This document shows positions 11,141 through 20,939 of a DNA stretch of 20,939 nt, piece by piece. The notes under the pieces were generated by a model. That model made no database searches, was not told the DNA's origin, and saw only the letters and a list, made by a program, of their open reading frames with translations. This DNA is from Acidobacteriaceae bacterium (GTDB lineage: Bacteria; Acidobacteriota; Terriglobia; Terriglobales; Acidobacteriaceae). How positions within the stretch are numbered: the first letter of the stretch is position 1; every line of letters starts with the position of its first letter. The stretch covers positions 3,047 to 23,985 of the forward strand of contig PMBA01000374.1 in assembly GCA_003152795.1 (NCBI GenBank), given 5' to 3'. The position numbers and the translations under genes were made by a program.

Positions 11141-11692
11141 ATGCGCGGCTTCATTCTAGGGATCGTCATCACTATTCTGGTTCTGCTGCTTGGTGGCCTG
11201 GGTCTTGCGCTGCTTGGTTTTCTGCCGACTCGGGCGAACAGCGCTCCCCCAGAGATGGAACGCCACCTCGCCATGAGCGCGCTCGATAATTCAGTGGAAC
11301 GCCATGCTCCGCGGGTAAATAATCCGGTTCCCCCAACCGACGAGAATCTGATCGAGGGGCTGAAGATCTACACCATGAATTGCGCGCTTTGCCATGGCGG
11401 GATCGACCGCCAGCCTTCGACCCTTGAGAAGTCGTTCTATCCCCCGCCTCCGAATCTCATCTTGCATCCCCCGGACGACGCGGAGTGGCATGTCTTCTAC
11501 TTGATTCACAACGGCGTGCGCTATACCGGGATGCCGGCCTGGGACAAAACGCTCTCCGAGGGAGACATATGGAAGCTCACGGCGTTTCTAACTCGCGTGG
11601 AAAAGCTGCCGCCCTCGGTACAGGACTATTGGAAAAAATCGAGCGGGGCAAACCCTCCAACTGGCAGCCAGGGGCACGACGAGCACAAATAA
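11141..11692 (+). CDS. Membrane-anchored monoheme c-type cytochrome
   Basis: A 183-residue electron carrier in the periplasm. An N-terminal membrane helix (about 4-28, FILGIVITILVLLLGGLGLAL) is followed by a Pro-rich linker and one heme c motif CALCH at about 80-84 (MNCALCHGG). The distal ligand is probably the Met in RYTGMPAWDKTL at about 129; GMPAW is the usual context in the cytochrome CBB3/class I fold. The last helix, WKLTAFLTRVEKLP, is also typical. The start is supported by GAGG about 10 bases before ATG. It may be cotranscribed with the VWA-like gene; no oxidase or reductase gene is nearby to name its partner. Confidence 0.88.
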   Translation: MRGFILGIVITILVLLLGGLGLALLGFLPTRANSAPPEMERHLAMSALDNSVERHAPRVNNPVPPTDENLIEGLKIYTMNCALCHGGIDRQPSTLEKSFYPPPPNLILHPPDDAEWHVFYLIHNGVRYTGMPAWDKTLSEGDIWKLTAFLTRVEKLPPSVQDYWKKSSGANPPTGSQGHDEHK

Positions 11693-11714
11693 GCGCTAGG
11701 TCCGGTGGTTTGGC

Positions 11715-11756
11715 GGCGCAGTCCACCGTGATCCGCTATGGCTAAGCCGGCGGATC
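11715..11756. terminator. Candidate convergent terminator hairpins
   Basis: GATCCGC (11730-11736) pairs with GCGGATC (11750-11756) over a 13-base loop that contains the stop codon of the minus-strand TonB-domain gene. Just before it CGGTGG (about 11703-11708) can pair with CCACCG (about 11723-11728). The stems lie where the cytochrome gene and the TonB-domain gene converge. No U-tract follows, so support is modest. Confidence 0.35.
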
Positions 11757-13106
11757 GCTGAAGTTTATCGTAATGACGGTTTGAGTTGCCGCGGCATGTC
11801 CATTCACGGTGTAGGGTTGGAACCGCCACTGCTTGACGGCGGCAATGGCCGCCCGGCCAAGAATAAAGTATCCCCGGACAATTTTCAGATCCTCGACGGT
11901 TCCATCGCGTGCCACCAGAGCTTGCAGCACTACGGTTCCATGAAGTTTCTGCGGCAACCCTTCCGGTGGATACACGGGATCGACGCTGTGCACCAGCCGG
12001 GCCCTGGCTGCTTCTTCGGTCAGCGCGATGGGTTCGCTGAATTGCTGGATCGCTGGCTGGGACTGAGGTGCGGACACCGGCATCATCTGCGCCGGATTCA
12101 CGGTCACGACGATTGGCTGCGCAATCGGCGCTGAGTTTCGCATGCTTTCGGGAATCGCCGCGTGTTGCACGTGCATCGGCGCCACTTCCTGACGCGCAAG
12201 GACGGCGACGGGCAGCGGAAAGTCGGGAGCCTTGGGAAAGGGCAGCCGCGTGTCGAGGGGGGCCTCGGTAGCCACCACCCCCAGCGCGGGTGTCTGGACA
12301 TTGGAAGTGGCCGGAGTTCGGCTGAAGTATGCATCCTGTTGCGCGTCGTTTCCGGCGGAACCGACGGGCAGTGCCCCGGATTGGTTCATATAAAAAAGCC
12401 CCGCCACCGATTCCCGCAAAACCCGGAATGTTCCTTCCGGCGTCCGCGCCAGATAGTCGAGGGACTCCCGCGATCTCCACAGGCAGAACACCGCGGTCAG
12501 AACAAGCGCCGCAGCGCAAACTTCGCGGCGCCCGATCGCGTGGCCATGCTCTCGAGGTTCGTGAAAGGCTTCGGCTTCTTCAAGCGCAATTTCGCCGTGG
12601 CCGCTGTCCTGCGCCGCGTTCGCTTCCGGCGAACCGGCTGGCTGATCCTGGCTGTGGTCCGCGCCCACGGAGACTGCGCTCGGCGCTGCGCTGCTCGCTT
12701 CGTCAGCGGCGGAATACTTTACAGCATCTTCCGCACTGGTTGGCTGCATCCGCTCACACGCTTTCGCCAGCACAGCTTCGGCTTCTTCGACGGCAATTGG
12801 ACGATAGATCAGAAAATCGAGGCGGTTGTCACGTATTTCCGCGGCTGTCGGTTCGTGATTGGCGATGGCAATGGCCACCGTGTCACGGTTGGGCATGGAC
12901 TCGCGGGCGCGCCGCAACAGGAAACTCGCCTCCGGCTGCTCGACCCAGTCCGCAATCACGCAGGAGAAGGCTTGCGTCTTGCCTTTTTCGATGGCGGTAA
13001 AAATGTCCGAACAGACTTCGGCGCTGATGCCTGCGGCTTTGCAGGCTCCCGCCATCGTGGTATTCGTCTCGGAGTTTTTTGAGAACAACAAAGCGCGGAA
13101 GCCCAT
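11742..13106 (-). CDS. Degenerate receiver domain - transmembrane - TonB C-terminal domain fusion
   Basis: A 454-residue protein with three parts. Residues 1-120 have the alternating strand/helix pattern of a response-regulator receiver: RALLFSK, then CVIADW with D53 where the phospho-acceptor would be, VAIAIANH, and DFLIYRPI in place of the usual KP. The acidic pair after strand 1 is missing, so phosphorylation is doubtful. Residues about 121-195 are a disordered acidic/Ala linker; 196-211 (VCAAALVLTAVFCLWR) is one membrane segment; 212-360 is a Pro/Gln-rich spacer; 367-450 is a TonB C-terminal domain (VDPVYPPEGLPQKLHGTVVL, then AIAAVKQWRFQPYTVNG). It would place the receiver in the cytoplasm and TonB_C in the periplasm. 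Last of five co-directional genes, 149 bp after the PDZ gene. Confidence 0.82.
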   Translation of the reverse strand: MGFRALLFSKNSETNTTMAGACKAAGISAEVCSDIFTAIEKGKTQAFSCVIADWVEQPEASFLLRRARESMPNRDTVAIAIANHEPTAAEIRDNRLDFLIYRPIAVEEAEAVLAKACERMQPTSAEDAVKYSAADEASSAAPSAVSVGADHSQDQPAGSPEANAAQDSGHGEIALEEAEAFHEPREHGHAIGRREVCAAALVLTAVFCLWRSRESLDYLARTPEGTFRVLRESVAGLFYMNQSGALPVGSAGNDAQQDAYFSRTPATSNVQTPALGVVATEAPLDTRLPFPKAPDFPLPVAVLARQEVAPMHVQHAAIPESMRNSAPIAQPIVVTVNPAQMMPVSAPQSQPAIQQFSEPIALTEEAARARLVHSVDPVYPPEGLPQKLHGTVVLQALVARDGTVEDLKIVRGYFILGRAAIAAVKQWRFQPYTVNGHAAATQTVITINFSDPPA

Positions 13107-13255
13107 CGCGGCATCAGAGTATCGGGATTCTCTTCACCGCGACAGGTAACCAGTGGGTGGTGCACCGGTGGAATCTGGCCATCTCTCTGTTAAATCTAGG
13201 GTTTCATTCTCGCGCCGGTGACCTTCGTAACCGGCTCCAGCCCGCGCTTTCAGCT

Positions 13256-14350
13256 TCAGATCTCGGCCCAGTCCCTGGATATCTCATGGCGCAGCTTCTG
13301 CTGCCGTTCCTGCATTTCCTTCTGCCTGTCCTGCAGCCGGCGCTGCGAATCCTGCAACTGCTTCTCCATGTCCTTCATGTGCAGCGTGTACTCGTGCTGC
13401 ACTTTCTCCGCGATGAGCGGCGCCATGCGGGCCATTTGATCTCCGGCGCGATTGATTGCCTGCTCCGTTTCCGCCGTGAACTCGGGAATGTCAAAGCTGT
13501 CTTCCAGCAGACTGCCGGAATCCTTCTTTTCGGGAAGAGTCAGAGTCAGATTCTGCTCTTTCTTTTCACGCATCACGGTAACGGCGGCGGTGCCCCCCGA
13601 CGATGAGCGCAGAGCATGCGTGAAGTCAGAGGCATCTCGTACCGGCTGATTATTCACCTTGACCACGACATCTCCGGCATGGAATCCGGCCTTTTCCCCG
13701 CGACTGCCTTTTTCCACCGAGCGGACCAGCACGCCACTGCCGCCCTTGACGCCAAAAAAATCTCCCAGTTGCGGAGTAATATTTTCCACCATCAGGCCGC
13801 TGCGCAACGACTGGTGCGAGATGATCACGGAAACCGGCGCCTCGAACTCGGGCATGGCCGGGATCTCCGGCATGTTGAACTTGAACTCGCCGCTTTTCGG
13901 CGTCCACGTCATGGACTTGTGCCGGTCGGCGAGTTGCACCTTCATCGTCTGGGCCTGACCATCGCGGATGATGCCAAGGTTTACCACGCGACCCGCGGGC
14001 GTTTCCTTAATCATCCGGCGCAATTGGGCGGCACTCTCTACCGCCGTGCCGTTCAGGCTTACGATGACGTCGTGCTCGTGCAGGCCGGCCTTTCCAGCCG
14101 GAGCGTCCTGGTCAACCATCGTGACTTCCGCTCCGTGCTCTTCCTTGAGTTTCAGTTCGCCCAGTCGCTCCGGAGAAACGTCGGCGATGTCCACTCCAAG
14201 GTACGACGACCCACTGCCCTCTTCCGACCCTTCACCCCAACTCCAGCTTTCGCCGGTGCCATCGTAGTTCAATCCGGCTGGTTGCGCGCTTGCAACCATT
14301 CCACCGGCCAGCGTGACCAGAAACATGCAAAGCAGGAAGCGATGAACCAT
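13256..14350 (-). CDS. Exported twin-PDZ protein with C-terminal coiled coil
   Basis: A 364-residue protein with a signal peptide (MVHRFLLCMFLVTLAGGMVASA, quoted in part: FLVTLAGGMVASAQ) and probable cleavage after residue 22. PDZ1 spans about 49-140 (SYLGVDIADVSP; APAGKAGLHEHDVIVSLNG) and PDZ2 about 186-275 (GVLVRSVEKGSRGEKAGFHA; GDVVVKVNNQPV). Between them lies a short Met/Pro/Glu stretch. Residues about 315-360 are a charged Gln/Arg/Glu helix that should form a coiled coil. There is no trypsin-like or other protease domain, unlike DegP/DegS/RseP, so it is a scaffold or peptide sensor rather than a protease. It follows the DUF4097 gene by 99 bp with repeat words in the gap, and is part of the sigma-factor cluster. 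Confidence 0.88.
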   Translation of the reverse strand: MVHRFLLCMFLVTLAGGMVASAQPAGLNYDGTGESWSWGEGSEEGSGSSYLGVDIADVSPERLGELKLKEEHGAEVTMVDQDAPAGKAGLHEHDVIVSLNGTAVESAAQLRRMIKETPAGRVVNLGIIRDGQAQTMKVQLADRHKSMTWTPKSGEFKFNMPEIPAMPEFEAPVSVIISHQSLRSGLMVENITPQLGDFFGVKGGSGVLVRSVEKGSRGEKAGFHAGDVVVKVNNQPVRDASDFTHALRSSSGGTAAVTVMREKKEQNLTLTLPEKKDSGSLLEDSFDIPEFTAETEQAINRAGDQMARMAPLIAEKVQHEYTLHMKDMEKQLQDSQRRLQDRQKEMQERQQKLRHEISRDWAEI

Positions 14351-14370
14351 AACTCCTCCCGAACAAAAAG

Positions 14371-14460
14371 CTAGTCGTCAGTCGTTAGCAAACCCTCGCC
14401 GTCCGGCAGCGAACCCGAACCACCAGCGACTAACGACCAGCGACCGTTCCTAACGACTGA
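14371..14460. repeat. Inverted repeat of GTCGTTAG words between DUF4097 and PDZ genes
   Basis: TCAGTCGTTAG at 14378-14388 pairs with CTAACGACTGA at 14450-14460; the latter overlaps the end and stop codon of the DUF4097 gene. Between them CGACTAACGACCAGCGACC adds further copies of the word (14427-14445). It fills nearly the whole spacer and resembles the GTTCGTCG family in form. Confidence 0.6.
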
Positions 14461-15649
14461 CGCGGCGGAAGGTGACACTGCCGGAGTTCGTACGCACCTT
14501 CAGCACCGGTCCGCCGCCGTTGAGTTGACCTTCCGCAGTCACCGTCTTCGGCCCCCAGGGTCCGCCTTCACTGGACACATGAATATCGGAGAAATCGCTG
14601 CGGATCGTATGCCCATTGGCGACTTCGATCTCCGCCCGAACGGAGATGGCCAGATCGTTCGCCAGATAAACGGTGATGTCGCCGGCCGAAGTTTCCAGGG
14701 TGGAGTTGTTGTGAGCGGCCGCGCCATTTGACGACAGCAGTTTCACAATGATTCCGCCGGCCGAAGTTTCCGCCTGCACCGACGTTGCTCCATCCAGTTG
14801 GATACTGCCGCCGCCAGTCTGAGCGTGCACACGTCCTTTCGCCGACGCCAGCCGAATGCTGCCCGCGCCGGTTTCAATCTCTGCCGGTCCTCCGATGTCG
14901 CCCAGGTCCACGCTGCCGCCGCCGGTCCTGGCTTTTACCGGCCCACCGCACTTGTCCACCCGAATGCTACCCCCGCCCGTCCCCAGCACGGCGCCTTGCA
15001 GCCCGGCAAGAACGACTACGTTTCCCCCTCCACTTTCCGCCTTGATCTCGCCCCTGGCGGATGCAATCTTGATGTTTCCTCCACCGGTCTGAAGAGTGAC
15101 ATTGCCTTGCACGCTGCCGACTTCAATCGTGCCCCCGCCGGTCTCCGCCGTCGCATCGCCGCCAATGTCGTCCAGACGAATATTTCCACCGCCACTCTCG
15201 AGTTCGACACGCCCGGCAACCCCGGTTACGTTGACATTGCCGCCGCCCGTCTCCATCTTGGCGGAGTCCAGGCTCCGCGGCACATTGATGACAAATTCAT
15301 CGGAGCATTTGGAATCCCGCCGGCTCGACTCCGCTACAATCCACGCGGTGTCTCCCTTTACGGACGTGCTGATCCGGTAAGACTCAAATTCGCGGCGGGC
15401 CTTCTCTTCCGAAGATGTATAGGCCTTGCGATGAATGACGTATGTGATCCCCGCCTGCGATCCACCCTGAACCCGCACCGAACCCGCGGCCAGTTTCACC
15501 CGCAGATTCTTCGCCGCACCCAGGTCTCCCTTCATTTCCTGGACCCAGTTGCTGCCTTCGCGATAGACCCGAGTTTCCTGGCACAGAGCCAGAGACGCCA
15601 GCGCGGAAATCAAGACTGCGATGCTGGCAAGTTTTATAGCCTGCTTCAA
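14450..15649 (-). CDS. Secreted DUF4097 protein with a regular 18-residue beta-solenoid repeat
   Basis: A 399-residue exported protein. The signal peptide is about 1-23 (SIAVLISALASLALCQ); LALC is a poor lipobox, so I expect signal peptidase I. Residues 25-130 form the beta-rich DUF4097 head. From residue 133 an [EQR][TS]GGGxIxVxxxxGxVxx unit starts at 133, 151, 169, 187, 205, 223, 241, 259 and 277, exactly 18 residues apart, then a diverged copy at 294; shorter relatives lie near 319 and 386. Such GGG-rich regular units predict a beta-helix. Its location with an ECF sigma and anti-sigma gene suggests an envelope role; no enzymatic residues are evident. It follows the anti-sigma gene by 104 bp. 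Confidence 0.88.
   Translation of the reverse strand: MKQAIKLASIAVLISALASLALCQETRVYREGSNWVQEMKGDLGAAKNLRVKLAAGSVRVQGGSQAGITYVIHRKAYTSSEEKARREFESYRISTSVKGDTAWIVAESSRRDSKCSDEFVINVPRSLDSAKMETGGGNVNVTGVAGRVELESGGGNIRLDDIGGDATAETGGGTIEVGSVQGNVTLQTGGGNIKIASARGEIKAESGGGNVVVLAGLQGAVLGTGGGSIRVDKCGGPVKARTGGGSVDLGDIGGPAEIETGAGSIRLASAKGRVHAQTGGGSIQLDGATSVQAETSAGGIIVKLLSSNGAAAHNNSTLETSAGDITVYLANDLAISVRAEIEVANGHTIRSDFSDIHVSSEGGPWGPKTVTAEGQLNGGGPVLKVRTNSGSVTFRRVSR
14740..15253 (-). repeat. 54-bp coding repeats specifying the 18-residue solenoid units
   Basis: About nine consecutive 54-bp units with a conserved core reading GCCGCCGCCGGTCT on the plus strand (for example near 14811, 14919, 15135 and 15240). 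The core encodes ETGGG on the minus strand. DNA identity is high around the GGG core and low elsewhere, which suggests old duplication with protein-level selection rather than recent expansion. Confidence 0.8.
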
Positions 15650-15697
15650 TGAATGTCCTCCTCAACTTCGTACTTGTTGCTTAGCGCGTCTGCTGTT

Positions 15698-15749
15698 CGT
15701 CGTTCGCGGTTCGCAAACCCTTACAGTCAAGAGCGAATAGCGAACGACG
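15698..15749. repeat. Inverted repeat of the GTTCGTCG family between anti-sigma and DUF4097 genes
   Basis: CGTCGTTCGC (15698-15707) pairs with GCGAACGACG (15740-15749), and inside it TTCGC (15710-15714) pairs with GCGAA (15733-15737). The same words and polarity form the spacer hairpin at 4822-4880. The right arm ends 5 bases from the stop codon of the anti-sigma gene. Confidence 0.7.
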
Positions 15750-15753
15750 TTCC

Positions 15754-16725
15754 CTAATCCATCTCCGGCATCTGCGCCAGCATGGCACGGGCCTGCGAGC
15801 GAATTGAAACGTTCTGATCCGCCTGCGACACCTTGGTCAGCACCGATCGCACATTGCTGTCCGTTTTCATCGGCTCCACCAGTCGCAGGGCCTGCATCCG
15901 AACGCCGGAGTTCGTGTCGCCGATCAACACCCGCAACACCCCATCCCGCACTTGCGGATCCTGCCGCACGAAACCGCTTAGCCCATCCAGCGCCTTCAAA
16001 CGCACGCCCGGATTAGTATCGTTCTGCAAGGCATACATGAGCGCTTCGCGCACGCGCGAATCGTCGGGCGCCTGGGTAAGCACATCCACCGAGTCCATCC
16101 GGACTCCCGAGTTGTAATTGTTGCGGGCCGCGAACAACAGCAATTGCTGGATGCGCTGGTCGTTCAGCGAGCCCTGCGCTTCCTGGGTCGACACCGTGTC
16201 GTACTTGATGCTCACCTGATTCGATCCCGGTTCCTGAGTCACCGACCGGATACCCGCAATCGCGGACGATTCCAACGGTTGATTGACGGACTGAGCCGGA
16301 TTGCCGCTGCCCGATTCGAGCGCGCCGGTCATCACACCATTGCCGCCGCGAGCCGAAAGAAAGTTGTAGGTCGCGCCAATGCCGCCACCAAACCCGACGA
16401 TGAAAATCGCCGCCGCCAGAGCCGGCGCCATCCGAATCTGCCGCAGCCAGATTGCCGGCTCAAGAACCAGGCGCCGCCACAACCCTCCCGGCCGCGTCGT
16501 CTCCAGCGCTTCCTGGAGCCGCATCCGCGATGCCGCCAGCAGGTTCGGTGTCGGCTCCGCCACCGGCGTTTCCGAAAGCGTCGCGTGAAACTTGCGCGTC
16601 GCTTTCAATTCGATGGCGCATTCCGGACACCGTCCCAAATGCTGCTCTACCTCGTAGCGGGCGTCGTCCTCCAGCTCGTTGTACACATAGAACAGAATGT
16701 TCTGCCGCACCCAATCACATTTCAT
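15754..16725 (-). CDS. Transmembrane zinc-finger anti-sigma factor with C-terminal HEAT repeats
   Basis: A 323-residue protein. Residues 1-40 form a zinc-binding anti-sigma (ZAS/zf-HC2) motif: Cys3, and H29-x3-C33-x2-C36 in EQHLGRCPEC, which in this family holds the sigma factor. A membrane segment lies at about 99-120 (MAPALAAAIFIVGFGGGIGA). A low-complexity linker follows, then four helical repeats at about 187-320 whose cores NSGVRMDSVDVL, NPGVRLKALDGL, NSGVRMQALRLV and NVSIRSQARAML start at 205, 238, 272 and 305 (33-34 residue period), so HEAT type. This puts the zinc finger in the cytoplasm and HEAT repeats in the periplasm, a sensor layout by inference. It lies 73 bp after the sigma gene, the usual pairing. 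Confidence 0.88.
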   Translation of the reverse strand: MKCDWVRQNILFYVYNELEDDARYEVEQHLGRCPECAIELKATRKFHATLSETPVAEPTPNLLAASRMRLQEALETTRPGGLWRRLVLEPAIWLRQIRMAPALAAAIFIVGFGGGIGATYNFLSARGGNGVMTGALESGSGNPAQSVNQPLESSAIAGIRSVTQEPGSNQVSIKYDTVSTQEAQGSLNDQRIQQLLLFAARNNYNSGVRMDSVDVLTQAPDDSRVREALMYALQNDTNPGVRLKALDGLSGFVRQDPQVRDGVLRVLIGDTNSGVRMQALRLVEPMKTDSNVRSVLTKVSQADQNVSIRSQARAMLAQMPEMD

Positions 16726-16798
16726 TGTCGTCTTCCTTCGCGGGAAGCTGTAAGCGGCTGATTCCTTGCCACCGCTGTTGTAGGCTCGTGGCGCCCTC

Positions 16799-17509
16799 TC
16801 ATCGCATCTCCGCCAGTGCGCTCCGCAGTTTTTGCGTCGCGCGAAATAACGTATTCTTGGCCGTCTCTTCCGTCGTATTCAGCATCTCGCCGACGGTGCG
16901 CAGCTTCAGCCCGTGATAATGCTTCAATTCGAACACCATGCGCTCGCGGGGCGTCAGCTTCGTCAACGCCGCTCCAATCTTCCGGCCCAGCTCCCGCCGC
17001 ATCAGATCGCGTTCCGGGTTCGCTCCCGAGCGCACATCCGCAAACTGCTCCAGCCGGCTGTACTCTTCGCCGGAGGCGTCCACCGCAACCGGCGCGTCTT
17101 CCTTGCGCACATTCCGTTTTCGCAGATGATCGAGGCAGAGGTTAGTGACGATGCGGTAGATCCACGTATAGAAGGAACACTCAAATCGGAAACTGCCTAG
17201 ATTCTTATAGGCCTTCAGGAAGGCCTCCTGATACACGTCTTGAGCGTCGGACTCCGAACCGGTCAAGTGCAGCGCCAGCCGCAGAACCGACTGATCGTAA
17301 TGACGCACCAGTACCTCGAAGGCCGCGCGGTTGCCCTGCTGCGCCTCCCGGATCAGACTCGTGTCGTCAATGCGGTTGCCCTGCGCTGCCAACGAGCCCC
17401 TCATATTCCAATACGACGTGGGGTTCTGGTTGCCGCCGCCCCGTTCCGCCCGCTTCGGACGGTAATTGTCGCCAACCGGAAACGCCACTGCGAAAGAATC
17501 GGCCGGCAT
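16799..17509 (-). CDS. ECF (RpoE-like) RNA polymerase sigma factor
   Basis: Directs RNA polymerase to a small regulon, normally including its own operon. At 236 residues it is slightly long. Region 2 spans about 49-135: LIREAQQGNRAAFEVLVRHY, the core-binding AQDVYQEAFLKAYKNLGSF and the promoter-melting FYTWIYRIVTNLCLDHLRKR (quoted in part: WIYRIVTNLCLDHLRKR). Region 4 spans about 172-235, with LTPRERMVFELKHYHGLKL and the DNA-reading helix around TTEETAKNTLFRATQKLR. The first 36 or so residues are non-conserved; the ATG encoding MRGSLAAQG (residue 36) is an alternative start. First gene of the five-gene minus-strand cluster and so probably autoregulated. The 146-bp upstream spacer (17510-17655) may hold its promoter, but I cannot assign one. 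Confidence 0.92.
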   Translation of the reverse strand: MPADSFAVAFPVGDNYRPKRAERGGGNQNPTSYWNMRGSLAAQGNRIDDTSLIREAQQGNRAAFEVLVRHYDQSVLRLALHLTGSESDAQDVYQEAFLKAYKNLGSFRFECSFYTWIYRIVTNLCLDHLRKRNVRKEDAPVAVDASGEEYSRLEQFADVRSGANPERDLMRRELGRKIGAALTKLTPRERMVFELKHYHGLKLRTVGEMLNTTEETAKNTLFRATQKLRSALAEMR

Positions 17510-17655
17510 GGTCTGTCTCTGTCCCCTACAAGTGATTCAACCTTTTTCTTGCCTTGCATGGGAATAGACGGGGCAGCAGCCCGAACGTTAGCAGGTTATC
17601 AGGAGTTGGCCCTTGGTTTGCTCAACAGTGGGAAACAGCGGCAAAAACACCCTGT

Positions 17656-18138
17656 TCATTTCGGCCCATCAAACTTCAACCGCATCTCGTTCGTAGCTTC
17701 AAACCCCAGCTTTTCATACAAGTGCCGGCCCTCGGCGCTGGCGTGCAGATTGACCGCGCGCAGGCCCTGCTGCTTGATCCAGGCCAGGATGGTCAGCATC
17801 AGTTGCCGCGCAATTCCTCGTTTCCGAAACTCCCGCTCCGTGTACACATTCAGAATCACCGCCCGCTCGATGCATGGGTCTTTGGGATTTGCCGGCCACG
17901 GACACAACAGCACCCCGCCGCCCCCGGCGACGCGGCCGGTAGCGTCGAGCGCCAGCCAGTGGTGGTAGGAACCATCGGCCAGAGCCCGCGCCAGCCACGG
18001 ACTTGCAACTTCCACCATCCTGTCGAGTTCTTCTGCCGTGCCTTCGCCCATGTCGCGAAACATGGAGCGACGGTGATGCAGAATGATCGCGGACTCGCTC
18101 GCCGCGGCTTCTCGAATCGTGATGTCTGCGGGTGTCAT
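17656..18138 (-). CDS. GNAT-family N-acetyltransferase
   Basis: Transfers an acetyl group from acetyl-CoA to an unidentified amine. From the chosen ATG it has 160 residues, the usual length. ITIREAAASES opens the fold at 6-16; strand 4 VILNVYTEREFRKRGIARQL (about 94-113) contains the acetyl-CoA loop RKRGIA (105-110), and LYEKLGFEATNEMRL closes the domain. A longer frame from a TTG at 18186 would add 16 non-conserved residues and run into the queD promoter side, so I prefer the ATG. It diverges from queD over 77 bp. No substrate clue from neighbours. Confidence 0.88.
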   Translation of the reverse strand: MTPADITIREAAASESAIILHHRRSMFRDMGEGTAEELDRMVEVASPWLARALADGSYHHWLALDATGRVAGGGGVLLCPWPANPKDPCIERAVILNVYTEREFRKRGIARQLMLTILAWIKQQGLRAVNLHASAEGRHLYEKLGFEATNEMRLKFDGPK

Positions 18139-18181
18139 GGTCGCGCCGTGTCTCTCCGGCTCTAAACCGGCTCTCAAAAGG

Positions 18182-18187
18182 TACAAT
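18182..18187 (+). promoter_or_regulatory. queD: Possible -10 box of queD
   Basis: TACAAT matches five of six bases of the sigma-70 -10 consensus and lies 28 bp before the queD start. I find no good -35 element 16-18 bp upstream, so this is only a suggestion. No preQ1 riboswitch-like structure is visible in the short spacer. Confidence 0.3.
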
Positions 18188-18215
18188 AAAACAGAGTCGA
18201 GGCTAACTGGATTTC

Positions 18216-18593
18216 ATGTACGAAGTCACCGTCGAAGACACTTTCGCCGCAGGGCACTACCTGCGCAACTATAAAGGCAAGTGCGAGAACCCGCACGGCC
18301 ACAATTACAAGATTCGCGTAACCCTCGCCGGCGCCGAACTCGACAAGGCCGGCCTGCTGCTCGATTTCAAAGACCTGAAAGACGTGATGAAGCATGCCAT
18401 CGATCGTCTCGATCACCAGATGATCAACGACATCGAGCCTTTCACCGTCCTCAACCCCTCCGCCGAAAATCTCGCCAAGTATTTCTACGACGAAACCAAC
18501 TCGCGTCTGCGCAGCGTGACCAACGGACGTGTGAGCGTGAAGGATGTCACCGTCTATGAGACGGATACGACGACGGCGCGTTATAGCGAGTGA
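18216..18593 (+). CDS. queD: 6-carboxy-5,6,7,8-tetrahydropterin synthase (QueD)
   Basis: Converts dihydroneopterin triphosphate to 6-carboxytetrahydropterin, the first committed step toward 7-cyano-7-deazaguanine and queuosine. At 125 residues it has the normal length of the PTPS/QueD family. Zinc ligands are H14 (FAAGHYL), H27 and H29 (NPHGHNY); the catalytic Cys is C23 in GKCENP, which favours QueD over eukaryote-type PTPS; LDHQMIND at 65-72 supplies the Asp-His pair; and the Glu in VYETDTTTARY at about 115 contacts the pterin. Followed 96 bp later by queE in the same direction, which supports the queuosine assignment. queC and queF are not in the window. Confidence 0.93.
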   Translation: MYEVTVEDTFAAGHYLRNYKGKCENPHGHNYKIRVTLAGAELDKAGLLLDFKDLKDVMKHAIDRLDHQMINDIEPFTVLNPSAENLAKYFYDETNSRLRSVTNGRVSVKDVTVYETDTTTARYSE

Positions 18594-18609
18594 AAATCAT
18601 TGAGACATC

Positions 18610-18680
18610 GAGTCATTTAGTCATTGAATCATTTAAGTTCAACGGCAAAGCTTTTCAATGATTCAATGACTAAATGACTC
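18610..18680. repeat. 24-bp perfect inverted repeat just before the queE start codon
   Basis: Bases 18610-18633 pair without mismatch with 18657-18680 around a 23-base loop. The arms consist of repeated GTCATTTA/GTCATTGA/ATCATT words. The right arm ends 9 bases before the queE ATG at 18690, exactly where the ribosome must bind, and no Shine-Dalgarno sequence is seen between arm and ATG. Confidence 0.85.
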
Positions 18681-18689
18681 AATGACCCG

Positions 18690-19373
18690 ATGCAAGTAAC
18701 CGAAATCTACAAGTCGCTCCAGGGCGAATCGACGCACGCTGGCTTGGCCTGCGTCTTCGTGCGTCTCACGGGATGCAACCTGCGCTGCTCCTGGTGCGAC
18801 AGCGAGTTCAGTTTCTACGGCGGGCAGAAGTTGACGCTGCAGGAAGTCCTGAGCGAAGTCGCCCGCCTCAGTCCGGCTGGCGGACTGGTCGAGATCACCG
18901 GCGGCGAACCCATGTTGCAGGAGCGCGAAGTCATCCCGCTAATGGAGCAACTGCTGGACGCCGACTATCAGGTGTTGCTTGAGACCAGCGGCGAACGCCC
19001 CCTGGCGCATGTTCCAAAACAAGTCATCAAGATCGTCGATGTGAAGTGTCCGCACTCCGGCGAACCTGACACGTTCGCTCTGGAAAACCTGGACGCGCTC
19101 CGCCCTCACGATGAACTTAAGTTTGTCCTGACCGATCGCATGGACTACGAATTCGCCCGCGACTTCGTTCTGAATCACCGGCTGGACGAGCGGGTGTACG
19201 CCATCTTATTTTCGCCTGCGTTTGAAAAAACCGCCTCTGGCTCGCGGGGTACTTCGCACTGTCAACTCGATCCGCAAGAGCTCGCGGAGTGGATTCTCGC
19301 CGACAATGTCCCCGCGCGCCTCAGCCTGCAAATCCACAAACTGATCTGGGATCCCGCCGCCAAAGGCGTATAG
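18690..19373 (+). CDS. queE: 7-carboxy-7-deazaguanine synthase (QueE), radical SAM
   Basis: Radical S-adenosylmethionine enzyme that contracts the 6-carboxytetrahydropterin ring to 7-carboxy-7-deazaguanine, the step after QueD. 227 residues. The N-terminus VTEIYKSLQGEST fixes the start and is the family signature. The cluster motif is C29-x3-C33-x2-C36 (GCNLRCSWCDSEF). VEITGGEPMLQ at about 67-77 is the SAM-binding GGE motif, and VDVKCPHSGE at about 117-126 and KFVLTDRMDYEFA are typical later blocks. Directly follows queD; a strong hairpin occupies the ribosome-binding region, so its expression may be held below that of queD or may depend on translation-linked unfolding. The 61-bp gap to the convergent recQ is short. 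Confidence 0.93.
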   Translation: MQVTEIYKSLQGESTHAGLACVFVRLTGCNLRCSWCDSEFSFYGGQKLTLQEVLSEVARLSPAGGLVEITGGEPMLQEREVIPLMEQLLDADYQVLLETSGERPLAHVPKQVIKIVDVKCPHSGEPDTFALENLDALRPHDELKFVLTDRMDYEFARDFVLNHRLDERVYAILFSPAFEKTASGSRGTSHCQLDPQELAEWILADNVPARLSLQIHKLIWDPAAKGV

Positions 19374-19409
19374 GGTTGCGCCCAATAAAATTCGGGCCAA
19401 GAGTTTGAC

Positions 19410-19430
19410 AACTTTGTGAGAAGTTCTTTT
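19410..19430 (+). terminator. Weak candidate terminator after queE
   Basis: AACTT (19410-19414) can pair with AAGTT (19421-19425), followed by CTTTT. The stem is short (5 bp, AT-rich), so it is only a candidate for ending queE transcription before the convergent recQ. Confidence 0.3.
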
Positions 19431-19434
19431 GCAA

Positions 19435-20939
19435 CTACGCCGACTTCGCCCGCACCCGGTTCTCCGCTCGCAGGTGCGCTACCACCAGCCGTATGTCCTC
19501 GAAACTGACATAAGGTGGCACCGCATCTTTGATATCTTTCAGCCGCTCGATCCCCTGCGCCAGGCAAGCCGCTTCAATCAGCGGCTGCGCGTCGGGAGAA
19601 ATCCATTTCGGGTCCAACTTCACTCGTCCGCTTTCGATCAGTCTTTCCACCGTGCAAACAACGTTCGAAATCTGCCGGACGCGAATGCGGGCAATCTCCT
19701 CCAAGCTGTGCCCCTCGTTCAGCAGCCGCAGCGTTCCCTCCGCCGGCGCATCGTCTTTGGCCATCATCGGCGTGGCGCGCGCTCCATCGCGAAAATTCTT
19801 CAGAACCTGGAGAATTTCATTGCCATACGTCTCCGCTCTCTTTTCGCCAATCCCTGGTACCTGCCTCAACTCGGCAAAATAGACCGGATGCCGACGGCAT
19901 AATTCTCCCAGTGTGCTGTCGGGCATGATAATGAACGTCGATACCTTTTTCTCCCGCGCCATGTTGCGGCGCCATTCACGCAAATAGGCCATAAGCTCTG
20001 CATCGACTTCGGGCAGCGCTGAACCCAGTGACGGTTGTTTTTCGGCAGGCGGCAGCGATCTGAAAGTTGAGGGGAAAACTTCGACCGCCGGTGTAGCAAC
20101 TCTCAGCCCCTTCTTGCCCAGCCATTCCGGCTTAGCGCCGCAGTTATCGCAGTTGCCGCACTTCTCCCATGGCGGAGTCTCGCCGAAGTGCAGGCAGATC
20201 TGGCGCTGGCGGCAGCCATGAGAATCGGCGAAGCGGCTGATCACCCGCTTGCGTCCGGCGGCGCGCTCACGCTCGGCGTCATCGGAAATTTTGTTGATGA
20301 AGTATTCCAGAAGAATGTAGTCGCGCTTCTGCCACAGCAGCACGCAATCGGCCGGACGCCCGTCCCGTCCCGCGCGCCCTGCTTCCTGGTAGTACTGTTC
20401 AATCGACTGCGGCACCGACAGGTGAATCACGGCCCGGACCGCGGGTTTGTTGATGCCCAGCCCAAACGCGATCGTTCCCACCAGCACGCGCACCTCGTCC
20501 GACATCCAGCGTTCCTGATTCTGCCGGCGCATGGGAGCATCCATCTTCGCGTGATAAGGAACCGCCGCAATCCCGCTCTCCTCGAGGTATTCGACCGTTT
20601 CTTCGACGCGGCGAATCGTGGGCGAATACACGATTACGCTCTCTCCCGCGTAGTGGCGCAACGCGCGGCTGAGCAATTCCATCTGCGTCCGCGCTTCGCA
20701 CTCGTGCACCACATAGCTCAAATTCTTGCGATGGAAGCTGGCAATGTAACAATCCGGATCGCGCATCTGCAGTTGCTTGAGAATGTCGTGCCGCACCTGC
20801 CGCGTGGCGCTGGCCGTAAACGCCGCGATCGGAAGGTTCGGAAAGCTGGTGCGCAGACGGTTGAGCTGGCGGTACTCCGGTCGAAACTCGTGCCCCCACT
20901 CGGAAATGCAATGCGCCTCATCCACCGCAAAGAAGCCGA
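19435..20939 (-). CDS. recQ: ATP-dependent DNA helicase RecQ, 5' end outside the window
   Basis: 3'->5' DNA helicase of recombination and replication repair. About 500 C-terminal residues are visible; the frame runs through the right edge, so Walker A is missing from view. The first visible residues read GFFAVDEAHCISEWGHEFR (motif II). AAFTASAT is motif III and YYQEAGRAGRDGRP motif VI. The zinc-binding region has four Cys: GCRQRQICLHFGE and then KCGNCDNC. An HRDC domain follows (AELMAYLREWRRNMA to GNEILQVLKNF). After it comes a C-terminal helix-turn-helix type extension of about 100 residues (LLNEGHSLEEIARIRVRQIS to the end), found in many but not all RecQ proteins. Domain order and length are normal. 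Confidence 0.95.
   Translation of the reverse strand, partial: GFFAVDEAHCISEWGHEFRPEYRQLNRLRTSFPNLPIAAFTASATRQVRHDILKQLQMRDPDCYIASFHRKNLSYVVHECEARTQMELLSRALRHYAGESVIVYSPTIRRVEETVEYLEESGIAAVPYHAKMDAPMRRQNQERWMSDEVRVLVGTIAFGLGINKPAVRAVIHLSVPQSIEQYYQEAGRAGRDGRPADCVLLWQKRDYILLEYFINKISDDAERERAAGRKRVISRFADSHGCRQRQICLHFGETPPWEKCGNCDNCGAKPEWLGKKGLRVATPAVEVFPSTFRSLPPAEKQPSLGSALPEVDAELMAYLREWRRNMAREKKVSTFIIMPDSTLGELCRRHPVYFAELRQVPGIGEKRAETYGNEILQVLKNFRDGARATPMMAKDDAPAEGTLRLLNEGHSLEEIARIRVRQISNVVCTVERLIESGRVKLDPKWISPDAQPLIEAACLAQGIERLKDIKDAVPPYVSFEDIRLVVAHLRAENRVRAKSA

Follow-up and report, generated by a model that had tools for sequence, protein, structure and literature searches.

The RpoE-RseA-RseB and AlgU-MucA-MucB-MucD operons combine an extracytoplasmic function (ECF) sigma factor, an anti-sigma factor with a single transmembrane (TM) segment, an exported partner and a PDZ protein of the DegP/MucD type. 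We found the same kinds of component in one operon in the 20,939-nucleotide stretch analyzed here (the window), which belongs to contig PMBA01000374.1 of an Acidobacteriaceae bacterium whose genome assembly comprises 4.7 Mb in 475 contigs and is 82% complete. Unlike in the RseA and MucA systems, the anti-sigma factor combines HEAT repeats with a zinc finger of the zinc-associated anti-sigma (ZAS) type, the exported partner is a DUF4097 protein, and the PDZ protein lacks a protease domain. None of the five proteins of the gene run matches an RseB/MucB domain, and no HtrA protease is encoded in the operon, which has PDZ domains only; PF13365 domains are encoded elsewhere in the genome. The SigW-RsiW pair of Bacillus also has a ZAS anti-sigma factor with a TM segment, although we know of no HEAT, DUF4097 or PDZ parts in RsiW. 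The profile of the anti-sigma factor matches RsiW in the PDB (5wuq, E = 3e-4).

The available part of PMC11237479 associates DUF4097 (Toastrack) with membrane stress and, in one context, with an operonic sigma factor, and argues that the domain is intracellular. The DUF4097 protein studied here differs from the PSP/Lia neighborhoods described in that part by its N-terminal signal-type segment and its position beside a ZAS-HEAT anti-sigma factor, and its apparent export runs counter to the intracellular argument made there. As far as the main text of PMC11237479 is available, the words anti-sigma, ZAS, PDZ and ECF are absent from it, and the available part of PMC3174227 mentions HEAT repeats only within a gene-count table. 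PspA and PspC were not matched among the seven window proteins scanned, the scan being limited to the window. Among the literature matches listed there was no description of the sigma/ZAS-HEAT/DUF4097/PDZ combination, although an ECF classification could contain one, and no experimentally studied envelope-stress sigma system in Acidobacteriota, a phylum abundant in soil.

Judging from sequence, the locus probably encodes an autoregulated envelope-stress switch of the RseA/MucA type, with a small regulon of exported proteins and a new periplasmic composition, namely a HEAT array, an exported DUF4097 solenoid and a protease-free PDZ protein. For this switch we infer the sigma binding, the signal, the contacts between partners and the promoter recognition. 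It would be a gene switch of the stress type, widespread in a large soil-bacterial phylum, and its defined core, promoter sequence and named candidate targets make it directly testable.

Conservation of the gene order

Relatives in named records are Acidobacteriota (Acidobacteriaceae, Terriglobales, Terriglobia and similar). Matches to the anti-sigma factor were found in 54 of 61 related genomes, the weaker ones being partial and often confined to the zinc finger, and neighborhoods were examined around 45 places. A scan of named contigs, which overlaps this genome set, kept the best 80 of 129 relatives, all with at least 56% identity. Excluding contig ends, the sigma gene precedes the anti-sigma gene at 78 of 78 testable loci, and the DUF4097 and PDZ genes follow it at 78 of 78 and 74 of 74, respectively. 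Since the first four genes stand in the same order at every testable locus of the 80, the arrangement is not a matter of chance. With the further loci described below, this neighborhood count bears out the sigma, HEAT anti-sigma, DUF4097 and PDZ genes as a conserved unit.

The anti-sigma profile also matches 142 of the 247 genomes of a phylum sample, many by the zinc finger only. Fifty-five further loci, ranging in relatedness from same-genus genomes to those of other classes, were examined, and the gene picker retained the anti-sigma gene in 51 (L076, L198, L199 and L209 were dropped). The sigma gene is upstream in 45 of these 51, and DUF4097 and/or PDZ is kept in 50, the exception (L064) ending at a contig edge. 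Other families and classes often have DUF4097 but no PDZ. At twelve same-family loci (L185-L196) the sigma, anti-sigma and PDZ genes are retained without DUF4097; a class-wide DUF4097 search at E = 1e-30 gave no match in nine of these 12 genomes, and the other three are not among the matched genomes. This natural version without DUF4097 occurs in near-complete genomes, some consisting of a single contig or a few and, on that account, probably derived from cultured isolates. The presence/absence pattern of DUF4097 and PDZ points to an ancestral core of sigma factor, ZAS-HEAT anti-sigma factor and an exported partner. Compared with the original five-gene prediction, conservation covers fewer genes and reaches further back.

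The five open reading frames (ORFs) are all on the minus strand and separated by 73, 104, 99 and 149 bp, as an ORF check of the window confirmed for the coordinates and 73-149 bp spacers first proposed. The features, in window coordinates, are:

16799..17509, minus strand: ECF sigma factor, 236 amino acids, with an N-terminal extension of ~45 amino acids beginning MPAD
15754..16725, minus strand: membrane anti-sigma factor with ZAS zinc finger, one TM segment (residues 99-117) and putatively periplasmic HEAT repeats
14450..15649, minus strand: exported DUF4097 (Toastrack) protein with GGG repeats and a TTG start
13256..14350, minus strand: exported twin-PDZ protein without protease domain, with a charged C-terminal tail
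11742..13106, minus strand: degenerate receiver-TM-TonB_C protein, a genus-level neighbor outside the conserved core
17564..17593, minus strand: ECF-type promoter TGCTAACGTT-N13-CGTCTAT, 0 mismatches, starting 84 bp before the sigma ATG
17595..17600, minus strand: GATAAC, at the position of the relatives' conserved TATAAT box in the upstream-region alignment
17522..17563, minus strand: predicted leader hairpin, in which the mRNA 5′ end pairs with the Shine-Dalgarno-like AGGGGA
17522-17527, minus strand: Shine-Dalgarno-like AGGGGA, 12 nt from the sigma ATG

Domain composition of the conserved proteins

Pfam finds Sigma70_r2 and Sigma70_r4_2 and no other sigma regions in the sigma factor, which is the composition of an ECF sigma factor, and the protein scores 124.3 bits against TIGR02937 (cut-off 42.9). 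Its N-terminus, MPAD..AV...VG (17471-17509, minus strand), is kept in the family, and the linker behind it varies in length.

A ZAS domain retains its sigma factor at the family level. In the anti-sigma factor, Pfam identifies zf-HC2 (residues 3-37) and HEAT_2 (227-317), and the hydropathy scan gives a single hydrophobic segment (99-117), a topology that would place the HEAT array in the periplasm. C3, H29, C33 and C36 are invariant across 20 aligned anti-sigma factors. In the available part of PMC7406223, Hx3Cx2C is the zinc motif of Class I ZAS anti-sigma factors, and it is found here at the N-terminus as H29, C33 and C36. At E = 1e-10, 6312 of 8000 scored candidates are homologues of this protein, and the names among 120 listed homologues, where present, are HEAT-repeat, zinc-finger, RsiW-like and hypothetical protein. 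Such homologues are commonplace and so named; the anti-sigma family is therefore already known by annotation.

The DUF4097 domain scores 26.5 bits (Pfam cut-off 22.9) in a protein with an N-terminal signal-type segment and a marginal second segment (211-229) within the repeats. Its TTG start (15647-15649, minus strand), which may lower translation, was picked in 20 of 21 same-genus loci. The PDZ protein has PDZ domains in two stretches, an N-terminal signal-type segment and no protease domain by Pfam. The nearest relatives of its PDZ domains are those of DegP/DegQ, MucD and AlgW and the PDZ tandem of a site-2 protease; the PDZ domains of DegP, MucD, AlgW and the site-2 protease read exposed C-termini. 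From the hydropathy scan, four of the five proteins appear membrane-bound or exported, in agreement with the original prediction, whose domain assignments are also recovered by Pfam except for the receiver label of the TonB protein.

Promoter and candidate regulon

ECF promoters are generally of the AAC-N16-CGTC form. A promoter of this type precedes the sigma gene, within a block whose conservation across genera stands out from unconserved surroundings: a TATAAT-like box, TGCT(A/C)ACGNT, 13 nucleotides and CGTC(T/C)AT. The TATAAT-like box just upstream of the ECF promoter is a possible housekeeping promoter. Allowing at most three mismatches and a spacer of 12-14, the motif occurs in 90 of 123 upstream regions, 49 of them exact, as compared with 2 of 123 base-shuffled regions. 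The window has one exact occurrence, that before the sigma gene (0.35 expected by chance), and no second site was found in it.

A common upstream motif before the sigma gene and distant genes, proposed earlier as a check, was indeed found. The strict motif TGCTHACSNW-N13-CGTCYA, fixed after a looser search had revealed sites before S9 genes, has 47 sites in 24 same-genus genomes and five for the reversed pattern. Twenty-one sites lie before the sigma gene, 10 before an exported S9 prolyl oligopeptidase and 16 elsewhere. Among these 16, DUF2911 (four), DUF5916 (three) and sortilin/BNR (two) recur, and the single sites precede an M48 peptidase, a cytochrome P460, an exported protein without Pfam match, a MacB-like permease, a STAS protein, a short ORF only and, in one case, no nearby gene that was found. 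M48 and M13 peptidase targets occur once each. Targets were identified by Pfam for S9 and one example each of six others, and the remainder were assigned by eye. Exported or membrane proteins make up eight of the 11 non-sigma target families, versus 70 of 206 background genes (binomial P ~0.01), by a crude rule that is the same for the background and with target families chosen after the fact.

Among 18 S9 orthologues in the genus with at least 77% identity and upstream sequence present, 17 have the motif within three mismatches (nine exact, three with one, four with two and one with three), and that of G022 lies outside this limit and has a longer spacer. The orthologues of G011 and of the window's own genome are not among the 18, having had no upstream sequence to compare. 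In the own genome the S9 site is exact, the contig end leaving just the first S9 codons. The motif was found before none of eight distant S9 homologues, whose starts are only estimated.

Related motifs were also seen elsewhere. In one same-genus genome, a similar promoter that lacks the leading T precedes a separate gene for an exported DUF4097 protein (L280:1637-2281), and a related recurrent motif precedes a secreted DUF885-type protein, assigned by eye, in L270, L271 and L272. A recurrent GCTTGCGTTGATCC match was discarded; it falls within an opposite-strand reading frame.

Leader RNA of the sigma gene

The 46-77 nt leaders have a mean folding z-score of −2.11 against dinucleotide shuffles, with 64% below −1.5 (n = 72, from related genomes and hence not independent). 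The control 55-nt regions before the anti-sigma, DUF4097 and PDZ genes and the −35 element give −0.46, −0.27, −0.03 and −0.23, respectively. Pairing between the Shine-Dalgarno-like stretch and the first 12 bases of the leader has a mean probability of 0.51, versus 0.18 when the 5′ part is shuffled. The window's own leader with the gene start is not significant (z = −0.29).

Within a clade of 20 leaders, pairing is seen in 94% of cells, and a single pair is changed on both sides. Covariation was rejected as support for the hairpin, versions slid by −3 or −1 columns giving more two-sided changes (four and two). A covariance model of this clade found the leaders of other genera weakly and missed the window's own, and Rfam had no match in 11600-18300. 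Support for the hairpin thus comes from folding energies and base-pairing statistics of related sequences rather than from covariation. By covering the ribosome-binding site, the structure probably contributes control of translation.

Some residues of the sigma N-terminus have unusually uniform codons: those of P2, A3 and V12 are 97, 94 and 100% identical, and the mean for 147 other conserved residues is 65%. RNAalifold also proposed a six-pair stem at the sigma start codon. We do not claim this second hairpin, because it shows no two-sided pair change and its energy is no better than that of synonymous versions (mean z = 0.16).

Proposed mechanism and alternative explanations

In the switch that we favor, the ZAS domain would hold the sigma factor at the inner membrane, and the periplasmic HEAT array would dock the exported DUF4097 solenoid and the protease-free PDZ protein, which could pass an exposed-C-terminus signal on to the array. 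An envelope signal would alter this assembly and release the sigma factor, most likely through site-1/site-2 proteolysis by HtrA-type and M50 proteases encoded elsewhere. The statement that no protease is present holds for the locus and fails genome-wide: PF13365 (HtrA-type) and PF02163 (M50) domains are encoded elsewhere in the same genome, making proteolytic release possible in trans. The free sigma factor would transcribe its own operon from the conserved promoter together with a small set of exported proteins, chiefly the S9 prolyl oligopeptidase, and the structured leader would probably add control of translation.

Several observations weigh against this reading. DUF4097 is found in 35 and PDZ in 28 of the 51 further loci, so that neither is obligatory. 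Looser promoter patterns scored fewer matches than reversed controls, and the S9 count is not independent, since the strict motif was settled with the S9 sites already known. In 80 family genomes the motif has 77 sites versus 26 for the reversed pattern, many of the 77 being the sigma gene's own promoter. G020 lacks this sigma factor (best match 39% identity), yet carries one strict site, upstream of a DUF5916-type gene, and a decayed site before S9, so that some sites may be read by another ECF sigma factor; about nine further ECF-like matches occur in the own genome. Conversely, G016 and G014 have the sigma factor and a decayed S9 −10 element, and the S9 gene of G026, from another genus and 67% identical, has three mismatches, some in the −35 element.

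It is possible, though we doubt it, that the DUF4097 and PDZ proteins are autoregulated outputs riding in the sigma operon and that the HEAT domain of the anti-sigma factor senses alone. The absence of each from some lineages, the separate DUF4097 protein of L280 behind a similar motif and the mostly exported nature of the other motif targets would fit such outputs; on the other hand, at least one of the two lies downstream of the anti-sigma gene in 50 of the 51 further loci, a tighter association than that of the other targets. A more elaborate version of the favored switch seems unlikely to us: a doubly gated envelope response ancestral to Acidobacteriota, in which the periplasmic scaffold would govern release of the sigma factor and the leader hairpin its translation, the PDZ protein would read misfolded C-termini, and the output would be exported peptidases (S9 in the genus, and the singly found M48 and M13).

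That the receiver-TonB protein is a working part, as signal input or output, of a true five-gene system is very unlikely. Its gene is same-strand adjacent in 10 contigs and in 14 of 22 same-genus loci (six of the remaining eight end close by), but 54 of 65 testable contigs show no such gene downstream, the eleventh positive contig having it 4.7 kb away. Its adjacency is seen only within the genus, where unrelated flanking genes keep their synteny over an equal range, and thus gives no evidence of co-function; the window has no second motif site, and the receiver is degenerate. We therefore reject the five-gene unit of the original prediction and treat the TonB gene as a neighbor at the genus level. 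As for the first four genes, they can hardly be accidental neighbors without shared function, an explanation already contradicted by their complete order in testable loci while the flanks change.

The receiver-TonB neighbor and flanking genes

The TonB protein has TonB_C at residues 377-449 (Pfam) and one hydrophobic segment (191-209). When its first 125 residues are searched as a profile, the PDB matches are mainly CheY-type receivers (best E = 9e-4). Response_reg is not matched in the window's protein and is matched in one of 10 aligned homologues (Pfam). These 10 sequences lack the acidic pair that follows strand 1, all have Arg (R102) in place of the usual receiver Lys, and two have Asn at the Asp position (D53). 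The receiver is degenerate, the active-site set of acidic pair, Asp and Lys of a phosphorylatable receiver not being conserved.

The unrelated neighbors that are likewise syntenic in the genus are GNAT, queD, queE, cytochrome c and pdhB. Upstream of the operon (window 17656-20925), GNAT, queD, queE and a RecQ-like helicase show synteny in the genus only. In another genus, two TonB-like ORFs (L102:13670-16063) begin 4.7 kb downstream of the anti-sigma gene.

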